From a virus, in the IMG/VR virus record IMGVR_UViG_3300049259_000090, positions 1 through 27,692 of that record: 27,692 nt of DNA; one strand, given 5' to 3'. The position numbers and the translations under genes were made by a program. Positions 2,415-25,481 of the stretch are shown piece after piece. The notes beneath the pieces were generated by a model, which saw only the letters and a list, made by a program, of their open reading frames with translations, did not search any database and was not told the origin of the DNA. Within the stretch, counting starts at the first letter, position 1; each line of letters starts with the position of its first letter.

Positions 2415-3206
2415 GTGATAGATGACCAGACAAAATGCACCTGGAAAAAGTGCCCCCGGCCTCTCAGGTACAAGAAGCAGAAGCTGTGTTCAGCGCACTA
2501 CCAGCGGCAGCGTGACGGCCGGGACATGGATGCCCCGTTCAAGGGCAGCCAGCGAGGTTGCGCCCATCCTGGATGCGGCCGGCCTCATGCGGCTAAAGGC
2601 TGGTGTGCGGCGCATTACCAGCGCAAGCTGCGCGGCGATGACATGGACGCCCCGCTCGGGGAGCCGAGAACGTGCTCGCACCCGGGCTGTGGTCGCCCGC
2701 ACAGTGCCCGGGATTACTGCTCGGCGCACTACCACCGGAAGTTCGTCCTGCATTCCGACATGGACGCCCCGATCCGGGACCGCCGGCGCAAAGGCGAGCC
2801 GCCGCCTGAGTGCGCCTGGACTGGCTGCCGTAAGCTGCGCCGGTTCACGAGCGGCCTGTGCCCGCGGCACGAGCGCCGACGCAAGGCCGGTAACCCGATG
2901 GACGGGCCGGCTTACTATCACGACACTCGCGGCTGGATCACGGACAAGGGCTACCGGAAAATCAAAATCGACGGCCGGAACGTCTTCGAGCACCGGCTGG
3001 TCATGGAGGAGATCCTGTGCCGTCCGCTGCTGCGGCAGGAGGAAGTCCATCACAAGAACGGCATCAAAGACGACAACACGCCCGGCAACCTGGAACTCTG
3101 GGTGTCATGGAAGGGCCAGCGCGTAGATGACTTGATCGAGTTCGTCGTGGCGAATTACCGGGACCGACTGATTAATGAGCTGGCCAGAATACGGAGTGTG
3201 ACATGA
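2415..3206 (+). CDS. HNH endonuclease with four tandem zinc-binding modules
   Basis: Likely a free-standing homing endonuclease. GTG start 7 bases after the connector gene; 263 residues. Residues 8-160 carry four modules of the form C-x4-C-x11-C-x2-H, with variations in the last, each followed by a conserved D-M-D-A-P or P-M-D-G-P tail. These probably bind zinc and DNA. The C-terminal part is an HNH_3-like domain: EHRLVMEEIL, then EVHHKNGIKDDNTPGNLELW, with the paired histidines, the Asn of the N-position and the NLELW end of the fold. The spacing and motif order match phage HNH homing enzymes. It sits between the connector and a group of tiny accessory genes, in the same direction as the late genes. 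The upstream neighbour has a frame break at ~1480. Confidence 0.88.
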   Translation: MIDDQTKCTWKKCPRPLRYKKQKLCSAHYQRQRDGRDMDAPFKGSQRGCAHPGCGRPHAAKGWCAAHYQRKLRGDDMDAPLGEPRTCSHPGCGRPHSARDYCSAHYHRKFVLHSDMDAPIRDRRRKGEPPPECAWTGCRKLRRFTSGLCPRHERRRKAGNPMDGPAYYHDTRGWITDKGYRKIKIDGRNVFEHRLVMEEILCRPLLRQEEVHHKNGIKDDNTPGNLELWVSWKGQRVDDLIEFVVANYRDRLINELARIRSVT

Positions 3207-8529: not shown

Positions 8530-8771
8530 TGCGCCGCTTCCAGGTCTACCGGCCCGCGCCGCCCGCGGGATACCGGGAGCAGGGTGCCGCCAACGCGCCG
8601 GACGAGGTGCAGTTCGAGGGCGTGGTGTTCAGCGACGGCCGCGTGTCCGTGCGATGGCTGACGCAGTTCGGGTCGACCTCCAACTGGGACAGCCTGGCTG
8701 ACCTGGAAGCGATTCACGGCCATCCCGAGTACGGCACCATCTGGCGCTGGCTCGACGGGGAAACCGCTTAG
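8529..8771 (+). CDS. Hypothetical protein, 80 residues, recurrent actinophage type
   Basis: The ATG at 8529 shares its A with the stop of the previous gene. It starts MRRFQVYRPAPPAGYREQGA and contains FEGVVFSDGRVSVRWLTQFGSTSNWDSLADLEAIHGHPEYGT, a small beta-sandwich-like pattern I recognise from many actinobacterial phages and prophages, where it is unannotated. Its 3' end overlaps by 4 bases the end of the convergent endonuclease gene, so the endonuclease inserted with almost no loss of sequence here. Confidence 0.68.
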   Translation: MRRFQVYRPAPPAGYREQGAANAPDEVQFEGVVFSDGRVSVRWLTQFGSTSNWDSLADLEAIHGHPEYGTIWRWLDGETA

Positions 8772-9295
8772 GCGATATGAGCCCAGGACTGGCGCAAGAC
8801 GATCCGGCTGACGTGCGCCTGACTGATCCCGAACACGTCAGCCAGGTCCTGTTCCGGCTCCCCGCTGGCCCGGCGGCGCCTTATGGCCAGGACGTCCTCG
8901 GCGGTGAGCATAGCGTTGCCCTGCCGCTCGCCGCGGGCCATCGTCCCGTCCCGGTACTTGTCGTCGCTGTTCTCCTGGATCGTGCCCCAGCACAGGTTCG
9001 CGAACCGGTTATCTCGCCTGCCGCCAGGGCCATGGCGTCCCTGCTGACCGGGCTCGGGCAGTCCCGCGAACGTCAGCAGGACGATGACGTGAACCGGGAT
9101 GCTGTGCACCACGCCGAGGCGGCTGAGGTTGACCCGGAGGTAACCGTCCGAGTCCAGGAACGGCCTGAGTACCGTGCCCCCGCGCCAGCCTGCAGCTGTC
9201 ATGTGCCGGGTACTGCACACCAGGCCGAGATCACTAGCCTCGTAGAACCCCTCGTAACCCGGGACAGGCAGCCAGCATCCGGTAGTATCAGTCAC
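8768..9295 (-). CDS. NUMOD4/HNH homing endonuclease with C-terminal HTH
   Basis: 175 residues from GTG at the high-coordinate end (MTDTTGCWLPVPGYEGFYEA). Order of parts: a NUMOD4 DNA-binding motif (W-L-P-V-P-G-Y-E-G-F-Y-E-A-S), an HNH_3 core (H-V-I-V-L-L-T-F, then RHGPGGRRDNRFANLCWGT), and a C-terminal helix-turn-helix (LTAEDVLAIRRRRASGEPEQ and FGISQAHVSRIV) that fits the DNA-binding tail of intron-type endonucleases. It is opposite in strand to the late genes and overlaps the neighbour's stop by 4 bases. The divergent gene, starting 139 bases from its start codon, has a frame break about 250 bases away. No clear ribosome site precedes the GTG. Confidence 0.88.
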   Translation of the reverse strand: MTDTTGCWLPVPGYEGFYEASDLGLVCSTRHMTAAGWRGGTVLRPFLDSDGYLRVNLSRLGVVHSIPVHVIVLLTFAGLPEPGQQGRHGPGGRRDNRFANLCWGTIQENSDDKYRDGTMARGERQGNAMLTAEDVLAIRRRRASGEPEQDLADVFGISQAHVSRIVLRQSWAHIA

Positions 9296-9433: not shown

Positions 9434-10507
9434 ATGCGTATTCTGGTAGTGCACCCAGGACCCGATTTCTCAGTTCACGATGTTTACGCCGGGTGGGTCG
9501 GGGCTTTCAAGAGCCTCGGCGTCGAGGTAGCCGAATACAATCTTTTAGGCCGTTTAACGACCGGCTTATCTTTTACAACATGGCGCTGATCGACACAGGC
9601 GAGAAGGACGAGGGCGGTCACCCGATCGTCCGCAACGCGATGACCCGCGAGCAGGCATGGAATGCTGCCGTGCAGGGCCTGTCCCATGCCTGTTACACGT
9701 TCTGGCCCGACGTCGTGTTCATTGTCAGCGCTTTTTTCCTCAGCGCGGGCACGCTCCAGCTGCTGCGCGAGCGGCGGCACAAGATCGTCATCCTGCACAC
9801 GGAATCGCCTTATTTACCAGGACACCGAGCAGCTGATGCGCGGCCAGTTCGCCGATCTCAACCTGCTCAACGACCCGACCAATCTCAAGCTGTTCCGCGA
9901 GTGGGCGCCGGCTGAGTACATGCCGCACGCCTACCGGCCGGACGTGCACTACCCGCGCTCCGGCCCGGCCGACCCGGCCCTGGCCAGCGACCTGGTGTTC
10001 ATCGGCTCGGCGTTCCGGTCCCGGATCGAGTTCTTCGAGGCGATGAACCTGACCGGGCTGGACGTGCTGCTGGGCGGGGCGGACTGGGGCTCGATCGAGC
10101 CGGGCTCGCCGCTGGTGCCGTTCGTCGGCACGCTGCCCGGCGCCCCGGATTGCGTTGACAACCCGCAGGCCGCCGGGCTGTACCGGCACGCCAGGGCGGG
10201 CATCAACTTCTACCGGCGCGAGGCCGAGGAGACCTGGACCGGGCACGGGGTCGCAATGGGGCCGCGCGAAGTGGAGATGGCGGCGTGCGGGCTGTTCTTC
10301 CTGCGTGACCCACGACCGGAGTCCGACGAGGTGTTCCCGATGCTGCCCTCGTTCGACGGGCCGGAAGACGCGGCTGAGAAACTGCGGTGGTGGCTGACCC
10401 GGGACGGCCTCCGGGACAAGCGCGCAGCCCAGGCGCGGGAGGCGATCGAAGGCCGGACGTTCGAGGCCAATGCGAAGCGGTTCCTGGAGCTGGCCGCGGA
10501 CCTGTGA
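9434..10507 (+). CDS. Glycosyltransferase-like (CgeB/GT4-type) protein with two frame breaks
   Basis: ATG 9434 (MRILVVHPGPDFSVHDVYAG) has GGAGGGAGGTGG upstream. The protein runs in three pieces: 9434-~9544 in one frame, ~9556-9813 in a second (NDRLIFYNMALIDTG ... FWPDVVFIVSAFF ... KIVILHTESPY), and 9818-10507 back in the first (QDTEQLMRGQFADLNLLNDP to FLELAADL). Joined it is about 352 residues. HTESPY-QD and LNLLNDPTNL, then FIGSAFRSRIEFFEAM, and the C-terminal GPREVEMAACGLFFLRDPR are the pattern of glycosyltransferases in which a late Glu/Met-rich loop binds the donor sugar. It may glycosylate virion or host structures. Both breaks compensate each other, so the ends stay in one frame. The minus-strand HNH gene at 8768-9295 is its immediate upstream neighbour. 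Confidence 0.72.
9539..9558 (+). other. Frame break B1 in the glycosyltransferase-like gene
   Basis: The first frame reads AAT CTT TTA GGC; the next piece reads ... TTT AAC GAC CGG. A 1-base loss of T would give NLFRPFNDRL. Removing 11 bases after CTT gives NLNDRL, which is the spacing I recall for relatives. CTT (9542-9544) is followed by an in-frame TTA. AAT 9539-9541 and AAC 9556-9558 are also frame-compatible synonyms. Confidence 0.7.
9811..9817 (+). other. Frame break B2 in the glycosyltransferase-like gene
   Basis: The middle frame reads TCG CCT TAT TTA CCA; the last frame reads TAC CAG GAC ACC. Removing 4 bases gives HTESPYQDTEQL, the expected motif; removing one base gives a second Tyr. 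TAT (9811-9813) is followed by in-frame TTA, and TAC (9815-9817) is synonymous with TAT. Confidence 0.75.
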
Positions 10508-10720: not shown

Positions 10721-11200
10721 CTACGGAGCGGCATCAAGAGGTAACGCGGGGGATCCTGGCGGCAGGCCGAGCGCGTCCCTGACCTCATCCGCCGACATCA
10801 GGCCCCTCGCGGCATCCCGCTGTACCTGCAGGCTGAGCCGGGTGATATCCATGAACATCCTGGCCTGCGCGATCCGCCCGGCATAAGCCTTCATCGCACC
10901 GGACACCGAGATGATCAGCTCACCCGGCATGCGCAGGGCCAGGATCGTGCCAGGGTCCGGCTCCGGGCCGGGCATCGGCTCCAGGACGACGCGGAGCGGC
11001 ACCGGGCGGCGGCGGGTCCGCCAGCCATCCGGGGCCTTCTCGCACTCGCGGACCAGCCAGTAGTCCCCGGTCCCGGTACCGTAGGGGCAGATCACGCAGC
11101 TGCCGCGGGAGCAGAACCGGCAGGTCATGTACGGCCTGCACCCCGGCGCGTCCCAGTCCATCCGCAGGTCGTGGGACGGGTGCGCGTCACTGCGGTCCAC
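10721..11200 (-). CDS. Hypothetical protein with N-terminal zinc-binding Cys cluster, 159 residues
   Basis: GTG start (MDRSDAHPSHDLRMDWDAPG). CRFCSRGSCVICPYG (about 27-41) gives four Cys in two C-x2-C pairs, a compact zinc site. The middle part is beta-rich with PVPLRVVLEPMPGPEPDPGT and ELIISVSGAMKAYAGRIAQA. The C-terminal helical segment VQRDAARGLMSADEVRDALG resembles a small helical tail. No enzymatic motif. It starts 1 base after the stop of the upstream minus-strand gene, so the two form an operon read against the late genes. Confidence 0.65.
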   Translation of the reverse strand: MDRSDAHPSHDLRMDWDAPGCRPYMTCRFCSRGSCVICPYGTGTGDYWLVRECEKAPDGWRTRRRPVPLRVVLEPMPGPEPDPGTILALRMPGELIISVSGAMKAYAGRIAQARMFMDITRLSLQVQRDAARGLMSADEVRDALGLPPGSPALPLDAAP

Positions 11201-11645: not shown

Positions 11646-11945
11646 TCACGCCCAGGTCAGGTTCTCAAGCGAGTCATCCGCCTTGCCGCGTTTCCCGTGC
11701 CTGGCGCGGCGACCGCCACCGGGACCGCAGAACGCCGTCAGTACGAGACTGGCCACAGTAACTGTTTTGACCCGGCCGTACTTGCTCAACCGCACCACCC
11801 GGTAACCCCGGCTGTTGACCTGGACCGCGAGCAGGCCGCCGGCCGTAGCGGCCCTGGCCAGGCTGCAGACGCGCCCGCAGCAGGACACCTCGTACCAGGC
11901 CGCGTACCGGGGCACCGGCAGCCACCGTTCGTCACCTGCGCACAA
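11646..11945 (-). CDS. Short NUMOD4/HNH endonuclease, C-terminally truncated
   Basis: The NUMOD4-like motif ERWLPVPRYAAWYEVS is followed by GRVCSLAR, a beta unit ending GYRVVRLSKYGRVKTVTVASLV, and an HNH core LVLTAFCGPGGGRRARHGKRGKADDSLENLTW. It then stops right after LTWA, where the related gene at 8768 continues for about 70 more residues with an HTH. The start is unclear: the TTG at 11945 is the only initiation codon in frame and has no ribosome site, and the frame is open further upstream to a TGA near 12030 without ATG or GTG. It may therefore be a decayed copy or have a damaged N-terminus. The gene beyond it (major tail protein) has a frame break about 310 bases away. Confidence 0.65.
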   Translation of the reverse strand: MCAGDERWLPVPRYAAWYEVSCCGRVCSLARAATAGGLLAVQVNSRGYRVVRLSKYGRVKTVTVASLVLTAFCGPGGGRRARHGKRGKADDSLENLTWA

Positions 11946-12152: not shown

Positions 12153-12607
12153 ATGAGTCGTATTCACGGACGAAACGGCGTGGCTTATGTCAGCGTCGAT
12201 CCCATCGGTGGCGCTAACCCCGTCGCAAGCCCGATGGCGTTCCTGAGCGACTGGTTACCTGGTCCATCAACTTCGTGGTGGCCAAGGTCGACGTCACGGC
12301 CATGCTGGACACCAACCTGATCTACGTGGCCGGCCTTCCTGACGCCTCGGGCGACTTCACGGGCTTCTACGACACCGCAACGGCTCAGACGTACGTCGCA
12401 GCCACAGACGGTCTTCCGCGCAACTTTTATCTTTACCCGTCCAACCTGGCAGCCCAGATGTCTCCTGTCCCGCAGTACTTCTTCGGCACCATCCTTCCTG
12501 ACTACTCCCTGTCAGGCGGCGTGTCCGCTGCGGTGTCGCTCAAGAGCACCTGGAACGCTTCCAGCCGCATTTCCCGGTACCCGGTTTACGGCCTTCCGGG
12601 CACCTGA
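12153..12607 (+). CDS. Major tail tube protein, frame broken at codon 34
   Basis: Strong ribosome site AGGAGGTGG before ATG 12153 (MSRIHGRNGVAYVSVDPIGG). The second part, in another frame, runs from about 12263 (SINFVVAKVDVTAMLDTNLI ... YVAGLPDASGDFTGFYDTAT ... FYLYPSNLAAQMSPVPQYFF, to YPVYGLPGT). The pattern W-x-I-x-F ... DVTAM.D(T/S)N ... YVAGLPDASG.F.GFYD ... Y..A.DG..R.FYLYP matches actinophage major tail proteins, the subunits of the tail tube. Read without interruption the frame ends at 12320; joined after removing 8 bases the protein is 148 residues. Codon use differs from its neighbours (more CTT, GCA, TTT), as expected of a highly expressed gene. A functional virion needs this protein, so the break must be an artefact, a recoding site, or a lethal scar. 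Confidence 0.82.
12252..12262 (+). other. Frame break C in the major tail protein gene
   Basis: The first frame reads AGC GAC TGG TTA CCT; the second reads TGG TCC ATC AAC TTC. Removing 8 bases gives LSDWSINF, the expected spacing; adding one G gives LSDWVTWSINF. The two TGG codons (12252-12254 and 12260-12262) are identical and flank TTACC, and TTA is the in-frame codon after the first TGG. It is not a homopolymer, so a sequencing slip is a weaker explanation here than at the other breaks. Confidence 0.8.
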
Positions 12608-12690: not shown

Positions 12691-13251
12691 ATGCCCGAGG
12701 ACGCGAAGCTGGACATCGATTTCGACCAGGAGCTGGCCGCGATCCAGGGCCAGGTGGCCGGCGTGCCCCGGCCCGGTCCCGAGCCGGTGGAGACAGTGGC
12801 AGGCACGGTCGTCACCTCCGAGCGCACCGTGGAGTTCCTGGGCGAGCGGTTCCGGATCGCCGACAAGATCGGCCTGATGCCGCTGCTCAAGTTCTCCGCG
12901 TACGCGGACATGAGCACGAACGATCCCGGTGCCATGGCCGCCATGTACTCGATGATCCGGGACTGCATTCATCCCGGTGAGCCCGGCTGCGGGAAATGCC
13001 CGGCATGCAAGGCCGGTGACGAGAACTCGTGCAAGGAATTCGACCCCGGCGACTGGCGGCGGTTCGAGCAGCACGCCATCGACACCAAGGCCGACGCGGA
13101 CGAGCTGCTGGACGTCATCACCAAGACGATCGAGCTGATCTCAGGGCGCCCTACCGAGCAGCCCTCATCCTCCTCGGATGGGCGGCGGTCCATGCGGGAC
13201 GGCTCGATGGCACGCTCCTCCGCACGTCGGGCAAGGGGCTCGAAGCGCTGA
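12691..13251 (+). CDS. Tail assembly chaperone, short (G-type) product
   Basis: 186 residues from ATG 12691 (MPEDAKLDIDFDQELAAIQG). It follows the major tail gene and precedes the tape measure, and is overlapped by a -1 frame product: the classic lambda G/GT arrangement, in which the short and frameshifted forms coat the tape measure during tail assembly. The core contains VEFLGERFRIADKIGLMPLLKF, DPGAMAAMYSMIRDCIHPGE and WRRFEQHAIDTKADADELLD, typical of actinophage G proteins. An unusual stretch of five Cys (PGCGKCPACKAGDENSC, about 107-121, plus C92) interrupts the usual CI-P-DW segment and may bind metal. The end is the usual ISGRPTEQPSSSSDGRRS-type low-complexity tail. Confidence 0.85.
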   Translation: MPEDAKLDIDFDQELAAIQGQVAGVPRPGPEPVETVAGTVVTSERTVEFLGERFRIADKIGLMPLLKFSAYADMSTNDPGAMAAMYSMIRDCIHPGEPGCGKCPACKAGDENSCKEFDPGDWRRFEQHAIDTKADADELLDVITKTIELISGRPTEQPSSSSDGRRSMRDGSMARSSARRARGSKR

Positions 13252-13496
13252 CCGTCCGGCAGTGCTGCAACGTCGCGTACTCGGTCAGGGCCGAGGGGCT
13301 CAGTGACCAGGAACTGGAGGAGCTGGACTTCCAGATCGGCATGAAGGAAAGCCCGGAACGCGAGGCCCTGCGGGCGCTGCGCGAGCACCAGGAGGCGACA
13401 GGGATGCGCTTCGCGGACCCGGACGCGCCCGTCCCGGCGGCCGGCGAGCAGGACCGGGTGCCCGGCTGGATGACGACGGATGAGGAGTTCGGGTGA
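12691..13496 (+). CDS. Tail assembly chaperone, long (GT-type) product by -1 frameshift
   Basis: The -1 frame opens under the ISGRPTEQPSS segment and continues to 13496 with well-formed sequence: RAALILLGWAAVHAGRLDG, KGLEALTVRQCCNVAYSVRA, GLSDQELEELDFQIGMKESP, ending PGWMTTDEEFG. Slipping back one base at CGC CCT ACC (13147-13155) gives ...ISGRP-YRAALILLGW and a 268-residue product. No start codon with a ribosome site exists for the second part alone, so it is made only as a fusion. Both forms are expected in a fixed ratio. Confidence 0.82.
13149..13152 (+). promoter_or_regulatory. Probable -1 frameshift site of the tail assembly chaperones
   Basis: C-CCT, where tRNA-Pro on CCT (13150-13152) can re-pair with CCC (13149-13151), joins GRP to YRAALILL. 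It is not a standard X-XXY-YYZ heptamer. Slipping at GGG (13144-13146) or in the TCC TCC TCG run about 20 bases on is also possible, but would add less natural residues. Confidence 0.5.
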
Positions 13497-13872: not shown

Positions 13873-15021
13873 CTACTTCCGCCGCGGCCGGCCGGGCTTC
13901 CCCCAGCAGACGTTACCGGGCTCGTACCGGCCAGCCGGATCGATCTTGCGGAACACCGTGCCAGCCGGCCGCGAACCCAGCAGAACCTCGACACCGGCTA
14001 CAAACTGCCGGACGTCATGCCACGGCTCATGCAGCTCTCCCGGATACAGGCGGGCGATCCGCTGCCAGGTGTCATAGAGCGGGTGCCTGCATGCGCCGTG
14101 TTTCGGTTCCGGCCGGGATACGCCCCAGCGAGCGCTTTTAGCTCGCTGAATCTGCTCCCGGCCGGTCACCCAGGCTACGTTGCCGGGTTCGTAAAGGCAC
14201 CCATTATCAATCCGGTGAAACCGGTGGCCTTCCGGTCGCGGGCCGATCAGCTTGCTGACGTCCCCGGAAAAGCCGATCCAGTCGTGCCAGGGCGCGCAGA
14301 CCTCAGCGGGGCGCTGCCGCATGAGCCGCCACCATGTCTGGTACAGCGACCCGTTGCGAGCCTGGCTGACAACTCGCTGCGAACCGGGATTCCGCTTAGC
14401 CTGACCGCCCTTGTAGCTTCGGGAGTTCCGGACTTGTTCTGCGGGCGTAGCCCATCGAACGTTCCCGGGTTCGTAATTCCCGTTGTTATTCGGGTAACGG
14501 TCCAGGGTCAGCCCCGGCGGGCGCGAGCCGATCAGGCGTTCGATATCCTCGATGAACAACTGCGGATTATGCCAGCGCTCGCAGACAGCGATCCCGCGGC
14601 CCCCGTAGTCCTTGAACTGCCGGAAGTTCGGGTTGTAGCACCGGGTCATCATGTTGCCCCAGGTGCCGTACAACGGGGTCGTGCGTGTCAGGCCGTGCGT
14701 ACGCTTAGTCGCCGCATTGAACATGGCGGTAACGGCGCGGCCTTCCGGCGACCGTGCATACGCAGCCAGCCGGGCAATATTTTCCGGGCGGCTCATCGTG
14801 GCGGCGGCGGTTTCGCGCATCAGGCACCCGCACGACCGGGTTGGCTTAGCGGGCTTGAGCAGGTCAGCCAGCCGAGTGTCGTAGACCGTCTTACAATCGC
14901 ACAGGAGCCTCACCCAGCGAGTCACCTTACCGCGATTGTCACGGATTCGTGCCTCGCTGAGCACCACGCCTCGCCCGAACCGGTCCCCAGGCTGAACGTG
15001 CAGCCGCGGTTTACCGCTCAA
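13873..15021 (-). CDS. Homing-endonuclease-like protein with a triplicated domain
   Basis: 382 residues from a TTG start with AGGAGGAGCC upstream (MSGKPRLHVQPGDRFGRGVV). The N-terminal part holds a C-x-C ... SCGC zinc-like pattern (41-66) found in phage HNH-associated proteins. Residues 117-192 form a complete copy of a domain seen in phage endonuclease-like proteins: LYGTWGNMMTRCYNPNF, YGGRGIAVCERW, LTLDRYPNNNGNYEPGNVRW. Residues 226-285 and 315-373 are two shorter copies that keep YxTW, PWHD, GxRPxG and YEPGNVxW but lose RCYNP and YGGRGI. Probably one catalytic and two DNA-binding copies. It sits opposite the late genes, 8 bases from the gp10-like gene and 76 bases from the tape measure start, whose frame is broken 98 bases from this gene's start codon. 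Confidence 0.78.
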   Translation of the reverse strand: MSGKPRLHVQPGDRFGRGVVLSEARIRDNRGKVTRWVRLLCDCKTVYDTRLADLLKPAKPTRSCGCLMRETAAATMSRPENIARLAAYARSPEGRAVTAMFNAATKRTHGLTRTTPLYGTWGNMMTRCYNPNFRQFKDYGGRGIAVCERWHNPQLFIEDIERLIGSRPPGLTLDRYPNNNGNYEPGNVRWATPAEQVRNSRSYKGGQAKRNPGSQRVVSQARNGSLYQTWWRLMRQRPAEVCAPWHDWIGFSGDVSKLIGPRPEGHRFHRIDNGCLYEPGNVAWVTGREQIQRAKSARWGVSRPEPKHGACRHPLYDTWQRIARLYPGELHEPWHDVRQFVAGVEVLLGSRPAGTVFRKIDPAGRYEPGNVCWGKPGRPRRK

Positions 15022-25204: not shown

Positions 25205-25481
25205 CGGACGCCCCCCGCGAGGTAGATGATGGCGATGACCCAGACGGCGGCGGTGAGGAGGAGCCAGATGACCGCCCGATAAACCCGCCAAGAATCGCGC
25301 CAACGTGAAAGCTGGCCCCGATCCCCGACATGGCCAGCCCCGTGATGATCACGGCCTCGTTCGGCTCCCGCACCGCGAAGACTTCCACCATGATCAGGGT
25401 CAGGCCGCCAGCGGTGAGGATCACGTCCTTGATGATCGTCCATGAATCCAGGAAACCGCCGAGCCATCGGCTCACTGTCAC
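25194..25481 (-). CDS. Membrane protein with an uncertain C-terminus (two overlapping frames)
   Basis: GTG 25481, with GGGAGCAG upstream, reads MTVSRWLGGFLDSWTIIKDV and continues with two hydrophobic segments (VILTAGGLTLIMVEVFAV, VIITGLAMSGIGASFHVGAI). In this frame it ends with a Ser/Pro-rich tail at 25194. From about 25275 to 25201, however, a different frame (-1 relative to it) has GC in every third position and encodes VIWLLLTAAVWVIAIIYLAG, a perfect transmembrane helix. That frame ends with TGA overlapping the next gene's GTG, and has no start codon of its own. Either the true product switches frame near 25280, or two products overlap. Confidence 0.6.
   Translation of the reverse strand: MTVSRWLGGFLDSWTIIKDVILTAGGLTLIMVEVFAVREPNEAVIITGLAMSGIGASFHVGAILGGFIGRSSGSSSPPPSGSSPSSTSRGASGEH

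Follow-up and report, generated by a model that had tools for sequence, protein, structure and literature searches.

How can a phage make its major tail protein from a gene whose reading frame is broken by a handful of extra bases? The stretch analysed here (the window) is a linear IMG/VR virus contig of 27,692 nt (IMGVR_UViG_3300049259_000090), possibly a fragment. On its plus strand, MSRIHGRNGVAYVSVDPIGGANPVASPMAFLSDW begins at the ATG at 12153 and its frame stops at TGA 12318-12320, while the downstream part of the protein (SINFVVAKVDVTAML...) uses a different frame that runs from TGG 12260 and stops at 12605-12607. Measured against intact relatives, the major tail protein gene carries 8 extra bases at 12255-12262, with a net frame change of +2.

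We compared the gene with 80 IMG/VR relatives of its downstream part. Nearly all of them read unbroken through ...SDW-SINF, encoded as GAC TGG TCN ATC/ATT AAC or near variants. As the intact relatives have no bases between GAC TGG and TCN, the 8 bases in the window are extra; the remainder of the gene is undamaged. Three claims of the sequence-only reading thus held, namely that 8 bases interrupt the gene at LSDW-SINF, that the frame-0 reading ends at 12320 and that the interruption is not a homopolymer. The sequencing error it kept as an alternative was not upheld. Loss of a single G is unlikely, because adding it back gives LSDWVTWSINF and the VTW is absent from every relative.

Short frame-breaking inserts in the tail gene were found only in the window and in two relatives. 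L008 has 7 extra bases at the window's site but one codon on (GAC TGG TCC-TTAG-TCC ATC), and L029 has 7 extra bases a few codons upstream (TTC CTT-TTAG-CTC AGC). The other disruptions of this gene in relatives are group I introns, which occupy several positions (L050, L058, L060, L028, L029, L036 and L072). A search of IMG/VR for the exact tail junction of the window gave no replicate, the insert at 12255 being present in one contig only. The tail and glycosyltransferase proteins had no matches among annotated phages, and no relative was found with the tail alignment in GTDB genomes; the relatives seen in the host look-up, in Acidimicrobiia MAGs and Klenkia, were all distant. No credible Rfam element was detected in the window.

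The tail junction of the window is arranged as TGG-TTACC-TGG. The 5′ ORF (12153-12254, plus strand), assigned by homology to the 80 relatives and to the PHROG major tail protein, runs through TGG (Trp) at 12252-12254, identified as the take-off codon from the sequence and from the junction set described below. The next codon in frame is TTA (12255-12257), whose UUA is the proposed starved A-site codon that would set off the hop. The 5-nt coding gap TTACC (12255-12259) and the landing codon TGG (12260-12262) were placed by comparison with relatives and by the junction set, and the resumed reading, recognised by homology, runs from 12263 to its stop at 12607. With the gap between take-off and landing codons skipped, the protein restored after the landing TGG is the ...LSDW-SINF... 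of the family. In the proposed hop, the ribosome would translate to Trp 34 and pause at UUA because little or no cognate tRNA is available for the A site. The peptidyl-tRNA-Trp would then release, move 8 nt forward and re-pair with the landing TGG, and decoding would restart at TCC in the wild-type frame. The insert, the in-frame UUA and the landing codon that restores the family protein are all present, and their grammar is common to many genes and phages; efficient hopping by the ribosome and a fused protein in vivo are inferred. Expression of the tail gene by UUA-triggered programmed translational bypassing is likely, a conclusion reached from sequence alone, without protein or ribosome-profiling data.

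We surveyed frame breaks by an all-vs-all search covering related contigs (about 1.75 Mb) and shorter loci. The survey resulted in 49 distinct frame-break clusters, many of them weak or antisense. By our own count, 13 of the 15 clusters backed by at least 4 homologs have an in-frame TTA at the break, even though no codon is rarer in these phages (13 of 50,301). TTA sits in inserts at 8 of 17 well-aligned sites, compared with 1-2 % for CTA, TTG, CTT, ATA, AGA, TTT and CTG. Nearly every well-supported break follows a shared grammar: a codon X, an in-frame TTA, a short gap and a codon that can pair with the tRNA of X, after which the wild-type reading resumes. The recoding idea of the sequence-only reading is supported by the recurrence of this grammar across genes and phages, still without protein data. 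The two TGG codons it had flagged are the take-off and landing codons, but it missed the common denominator, which is the in-frame TTA right after the take-off codon together with a matching landing codon.

Plausible genes of the window comprise 7,557 codons, in which TTA stands in frame at 12255, at 9814, in the first break of the glycosyltransferase-like gene described below (9545 and 9554) and at two other places. Of these two, the TTA at 10744 belongs to an unconserved ORF on the minus strand, 8 codons from its end, and the one at 25282 precedes the likely start of another such ORF. In a homology-free test for frame changes TTA was shifted in 9 of 10 cases. Several of these are TTATG gene overlaps, so we relied on the homology-based survey. 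A test for clade-specific depletion showed that GC-rich relatives all have few TTA codons. Most TTA codons that looked plain turned out to come from pairs of nearly identical contigs or from frames likely to be antisense, and one real-looking exception remains, in the distant relative L252.

We then characterised the codons on both sides of the gap in 29 distinct junctions, with the resume point set by similarity to intact homologs and the landing codon not used. Take-off and landing codons are synonymous in 16 of the 29, whereas permutation gives 2.9 (never more than 11 in 20,000 runs). Five of these pairs are identical and 11 differ at the third base (TAT/TAC, CTT/CTC, GAT/GAC, CGA/CGC, CCT/CCC, AAT/AAC). 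One junction (WIN GT38b) represents a second way of reading an insert already in the set, and without it the synonymous pairs number 15 of 28; same-site junctions in related phages are not fully independent. When G-U pairs are allowed, the landing codon fully pairs with the take-off tRNA in 23 of 29 junctions (5.0 expected), and the recurring pair GAT to GGC belongs to this class. Six landing codons lack full pairing (e.g. AAT to TAC, GAT to TAC). The last base is T in 19 of 29 take-off codons and C in 17 of 29 landing codons, a pattern of weak take-off and strong landing. TTA is in frame 0 at every junction examined and inserts measure 1-11 nt. The shift is +1 in 14 junctions, 0 in 8 and +2 in 7. 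Since all three occur, the common feature is UUA and not frame restoration.

The window contains two more TTA-associated frame breaks in a glycosyltransferase-like gene of the PF13524 family (9434-10507, plus strand). The first, at 9542-9558, reads CTT-TTAGGCCG-TTT followed by AAC GAC CGG; it is less regular and has a second in-frame TTA at 9554. The second, at 9811-9817, reads TAT-T-TAC (TAT TTA CCA in frame 0) and resumes at CAG GAC, and the same site is present in other contigs. The glycosyltransferase genes of relatives are broken at the same residues, and similar inserts occur in glycosyltransferase, portal and small-protein genes of related phages. The CCTTATTTACCA junction is present in 6 contigs and CCT TTA CCC in contigs from many samples, the latter being one of the TTA inserts that keep the frame (CCT-TTA-CCC, giving VHPGP[LP]DFSVHD). 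All hops fall within about the first third of their gene. In the glycosyltransferase (about 352 residues) they lie at residues 10-124, in the tail protein (147 residues) at about 27-34 and in the portal (548 residues) at about 23-31. As many related phages show the pattern in key genes, ribosomes most likely skip the extra bases and still produce the normal protein, possibly with the hop acting as a translational switch.

Regarding the supply of tRNA, five large arrays (32-40 tRNAs) contain Leu tRNAs with the anticodons CAA, GAG and CAG, but UAA is absent. Arrays of this size with similar gene order are seen in the related phages L099, L107, L121, L133 and L137. The arrays also lack a tRNA reading CTA, though CTA is a normal codon in these phages. 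As CTA is used normally without a phage tRNA, a host tRNA could still read UUA. In vegetative Streptomyces, bldA supplies the sole UUA tRNA. Poor decoding of UUA in the infected cell is inferred by analogy with that state, and the host of these phages is unknown. We found no stimulatory RNA structure at the junctions (mean fold z about 0), and inspection by eye of the 24 nt preceding 16 junctions revealed no obvious Shine-Dalgarno-like sequence.

Very few natural systems of ribosome bypassing are known. The closest is the terminase gene of Streptomyces phage phiHau3 (JX182369), for which UUA bypass has been proposed (PMC5009743) and which reads AAG GGT TGG GGC-TTACTCC-GGT AAG GAC. As in phiHau3, the window has a take-off codon, an A-site UUA directly 3′ of it, a short gap and a synonymous landing codon (GGC-TTACTCC-GGT in phiHau3), and the frame of an essential actinophage gene is broken early. 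Unlike phiHau3, which is one proposed case plus a prophage, the present set comprises many junctions from other phages. They lie in genes for the tail, portal, glycosyltransferase and small proteins, shift by 1-11 nt and include versions that stay in frame. The SD-like sequence 5′ of the gap is a proposed helper in phiHau3, not part of the core definition, and none is visible here. T4 gene 60 has a 50-nt gap, a stop codon in the A site and nascent-peptide and stem-loop stimulators. The window instead has UUA and a 5-nt gap, no such stimulators were found, and fold z-scores are centred on zero. The byp elements of Magnusiomyces capitatus mitochondria resemble our set in their many short inserts in many genes, the unused A-site codon and landing codons sometimes matched only two-out-of-three, yet they belong to yeast mitochondria, while here we deal with phages, UUA and gaps of a few nt. 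The hungry-codon hops and stop-hops of E. coli (PMC5009743) likewise combine A-site starvation with re-pairing at a matched downstream codon; those reporter hops are artificial or starvation-induced, whereas the hops here are proposed to be natural and recurrent. According to a 2016 review, the best candidates for regulatory bypass are the UUA codons of Streptomyces and its phages (PMC5009743). The wider UUA-bypass set was not described in the open-access literature that we searched (preprints and most subscription papers were outside its scope). As phiHau3 shows the same grammar and the wider set is undescribed in that literature, we class the system as a likely case of programmed bypassing of the UUA type, the novelty being the multi-gene, multi-phage set; this, too, is judged from sequence alone. 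About 28 distinct natural junctions form a panel with a simple grammar, the mechanism of which could be tested directly by reporters. Gene finders mislabel such phage genes as broken.

Could the inserts have arisen, or be dealt with, in some other way? An error of sequencing or assembly, or a dead phage gene in decay, gains some support from the single contig with unknown read support, and a net loss of one base alone could account for the frame. However, the breaks are TTA-specific and in frame, with synonymous landing codons, they recur in independent samples (see CCTTATTTACCA and CCT TTA CCC above), in-frame cases exist and the rest of the tail gene is intact, which leaves this explanation very little room. 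Hardly more plausible are DNA micro-insertions with short duplications, i.e. end-joined scars of endonuclease cuts without any recoding. The take-off and landing codons do resemble short target duplications, and the tail inserts lie at or near an intron insertion site. Duplication, though, would not yield the third-base differences seen in 11 of the 16 synonymous pairs, which one tRNA would tolerate, nor does it fit TTA in frame 0 in all junctions examined, and it would leave essential genes dead. Removal of the inserted bases from the mRNA, by a mini-intron or RNA processing, would also result in wild-type protein. This we regard as very unlikely, as inserts of 1-11 nt share no constant splice signals, and neither the in-frame TTA nor the examples that keep the frame would be explained.

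The purpose of the hop is more difficult to determine. A gate dependent on UUA tRNA, protection from homing endonucleases and inserts that are merely tolerated, as in Magnusiomyces mitochondria, are three possible roles among which we cannot decide. A translational gate on essential genes is possible but inferred. TTA codons of Streptomyces are biased to gene starts and the bldA UUA tRNA is dispensable for growth, and the bias is absent from other actinobacteria (PMC4255298). The early position of the hops and the Streptomyces bias fit an expression gate without proving it, since the host is unknown. In the protection reading, also possible, the hop is the same, but inserts were selected for destroying intron targets or homing-endonuclease recognition sites within conserved genes. 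UUA and its landing codon would then serve only to keep the gene functional, a scheme already proposed for T4 gene 60. In its favour, L050 has a group I intron after D32, adjoining the window's hop at the following Trp codon, introns interrupt the tail gene of other relatives too, break sites fall in conserved motifs, and in many relatives the tail gene is closely preceded by NUMOD4/HNH genes. The window has such a homing-endonuclease-like gene adjoining its tail gene (11646-11945, minus strand), whose link to the insert is possible but not shown. On the other hand, the NUMOD4/HNH gene is as common beside intact tail genes, so that a perfect association between neighbour and insert was rejected, the glycosyltransferase hop sites showed no introns, and hops occur only in the first third of genes, where cleavage targets need not be. 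Returning to the gate, a bolder reading would be that, in a large uncultivated actinophage clade, UUA is a hop signal and not an ordinary leucine codon. Late or essential genes would repeatedly have acquired UUA and a matched landing codon close to their 5′ end, both with and without a change of frame, making their expression dependent on a scarce UUA-reading tRNA as a phage-side counterpart of bldA control. We stop short of favouring this reading as a whole.

Several further features were noticed. Four HNH/NUMOD4-like genes lie among the structural genes of the window, at 8768-9295, 11646-11945, 13873-15021 (minus) and 2415-3206 (plus); the one at 11646-11945 encodes only 99 aa, ending NLTWA. 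The portal gene of L101, L133, L162 and L170 carries a large insertion at about residue 300-318 (intein, intron or endonuclease gene). A break without TTA, CCG TAG TCC, supported by 11 homologs, is located on the minus strand of L089 near 3529, in what corresponds to the tail assembly chaperone region of G001. Another break that is not of the TTA type lies at 1465-1495 of the window, at the start of a conserved gene (MTATVF-FDNV, GTC TTT TTT CGA TAA). The relative G016 (L123 near 7600) has GTC TTC TTT TGA C at this position, which resembles the +1 frameshift site of prfB. At 12691-13496, past the tail gene, two overlapping frames resemble the usual frameshifted pair of tail assembly chaperones.
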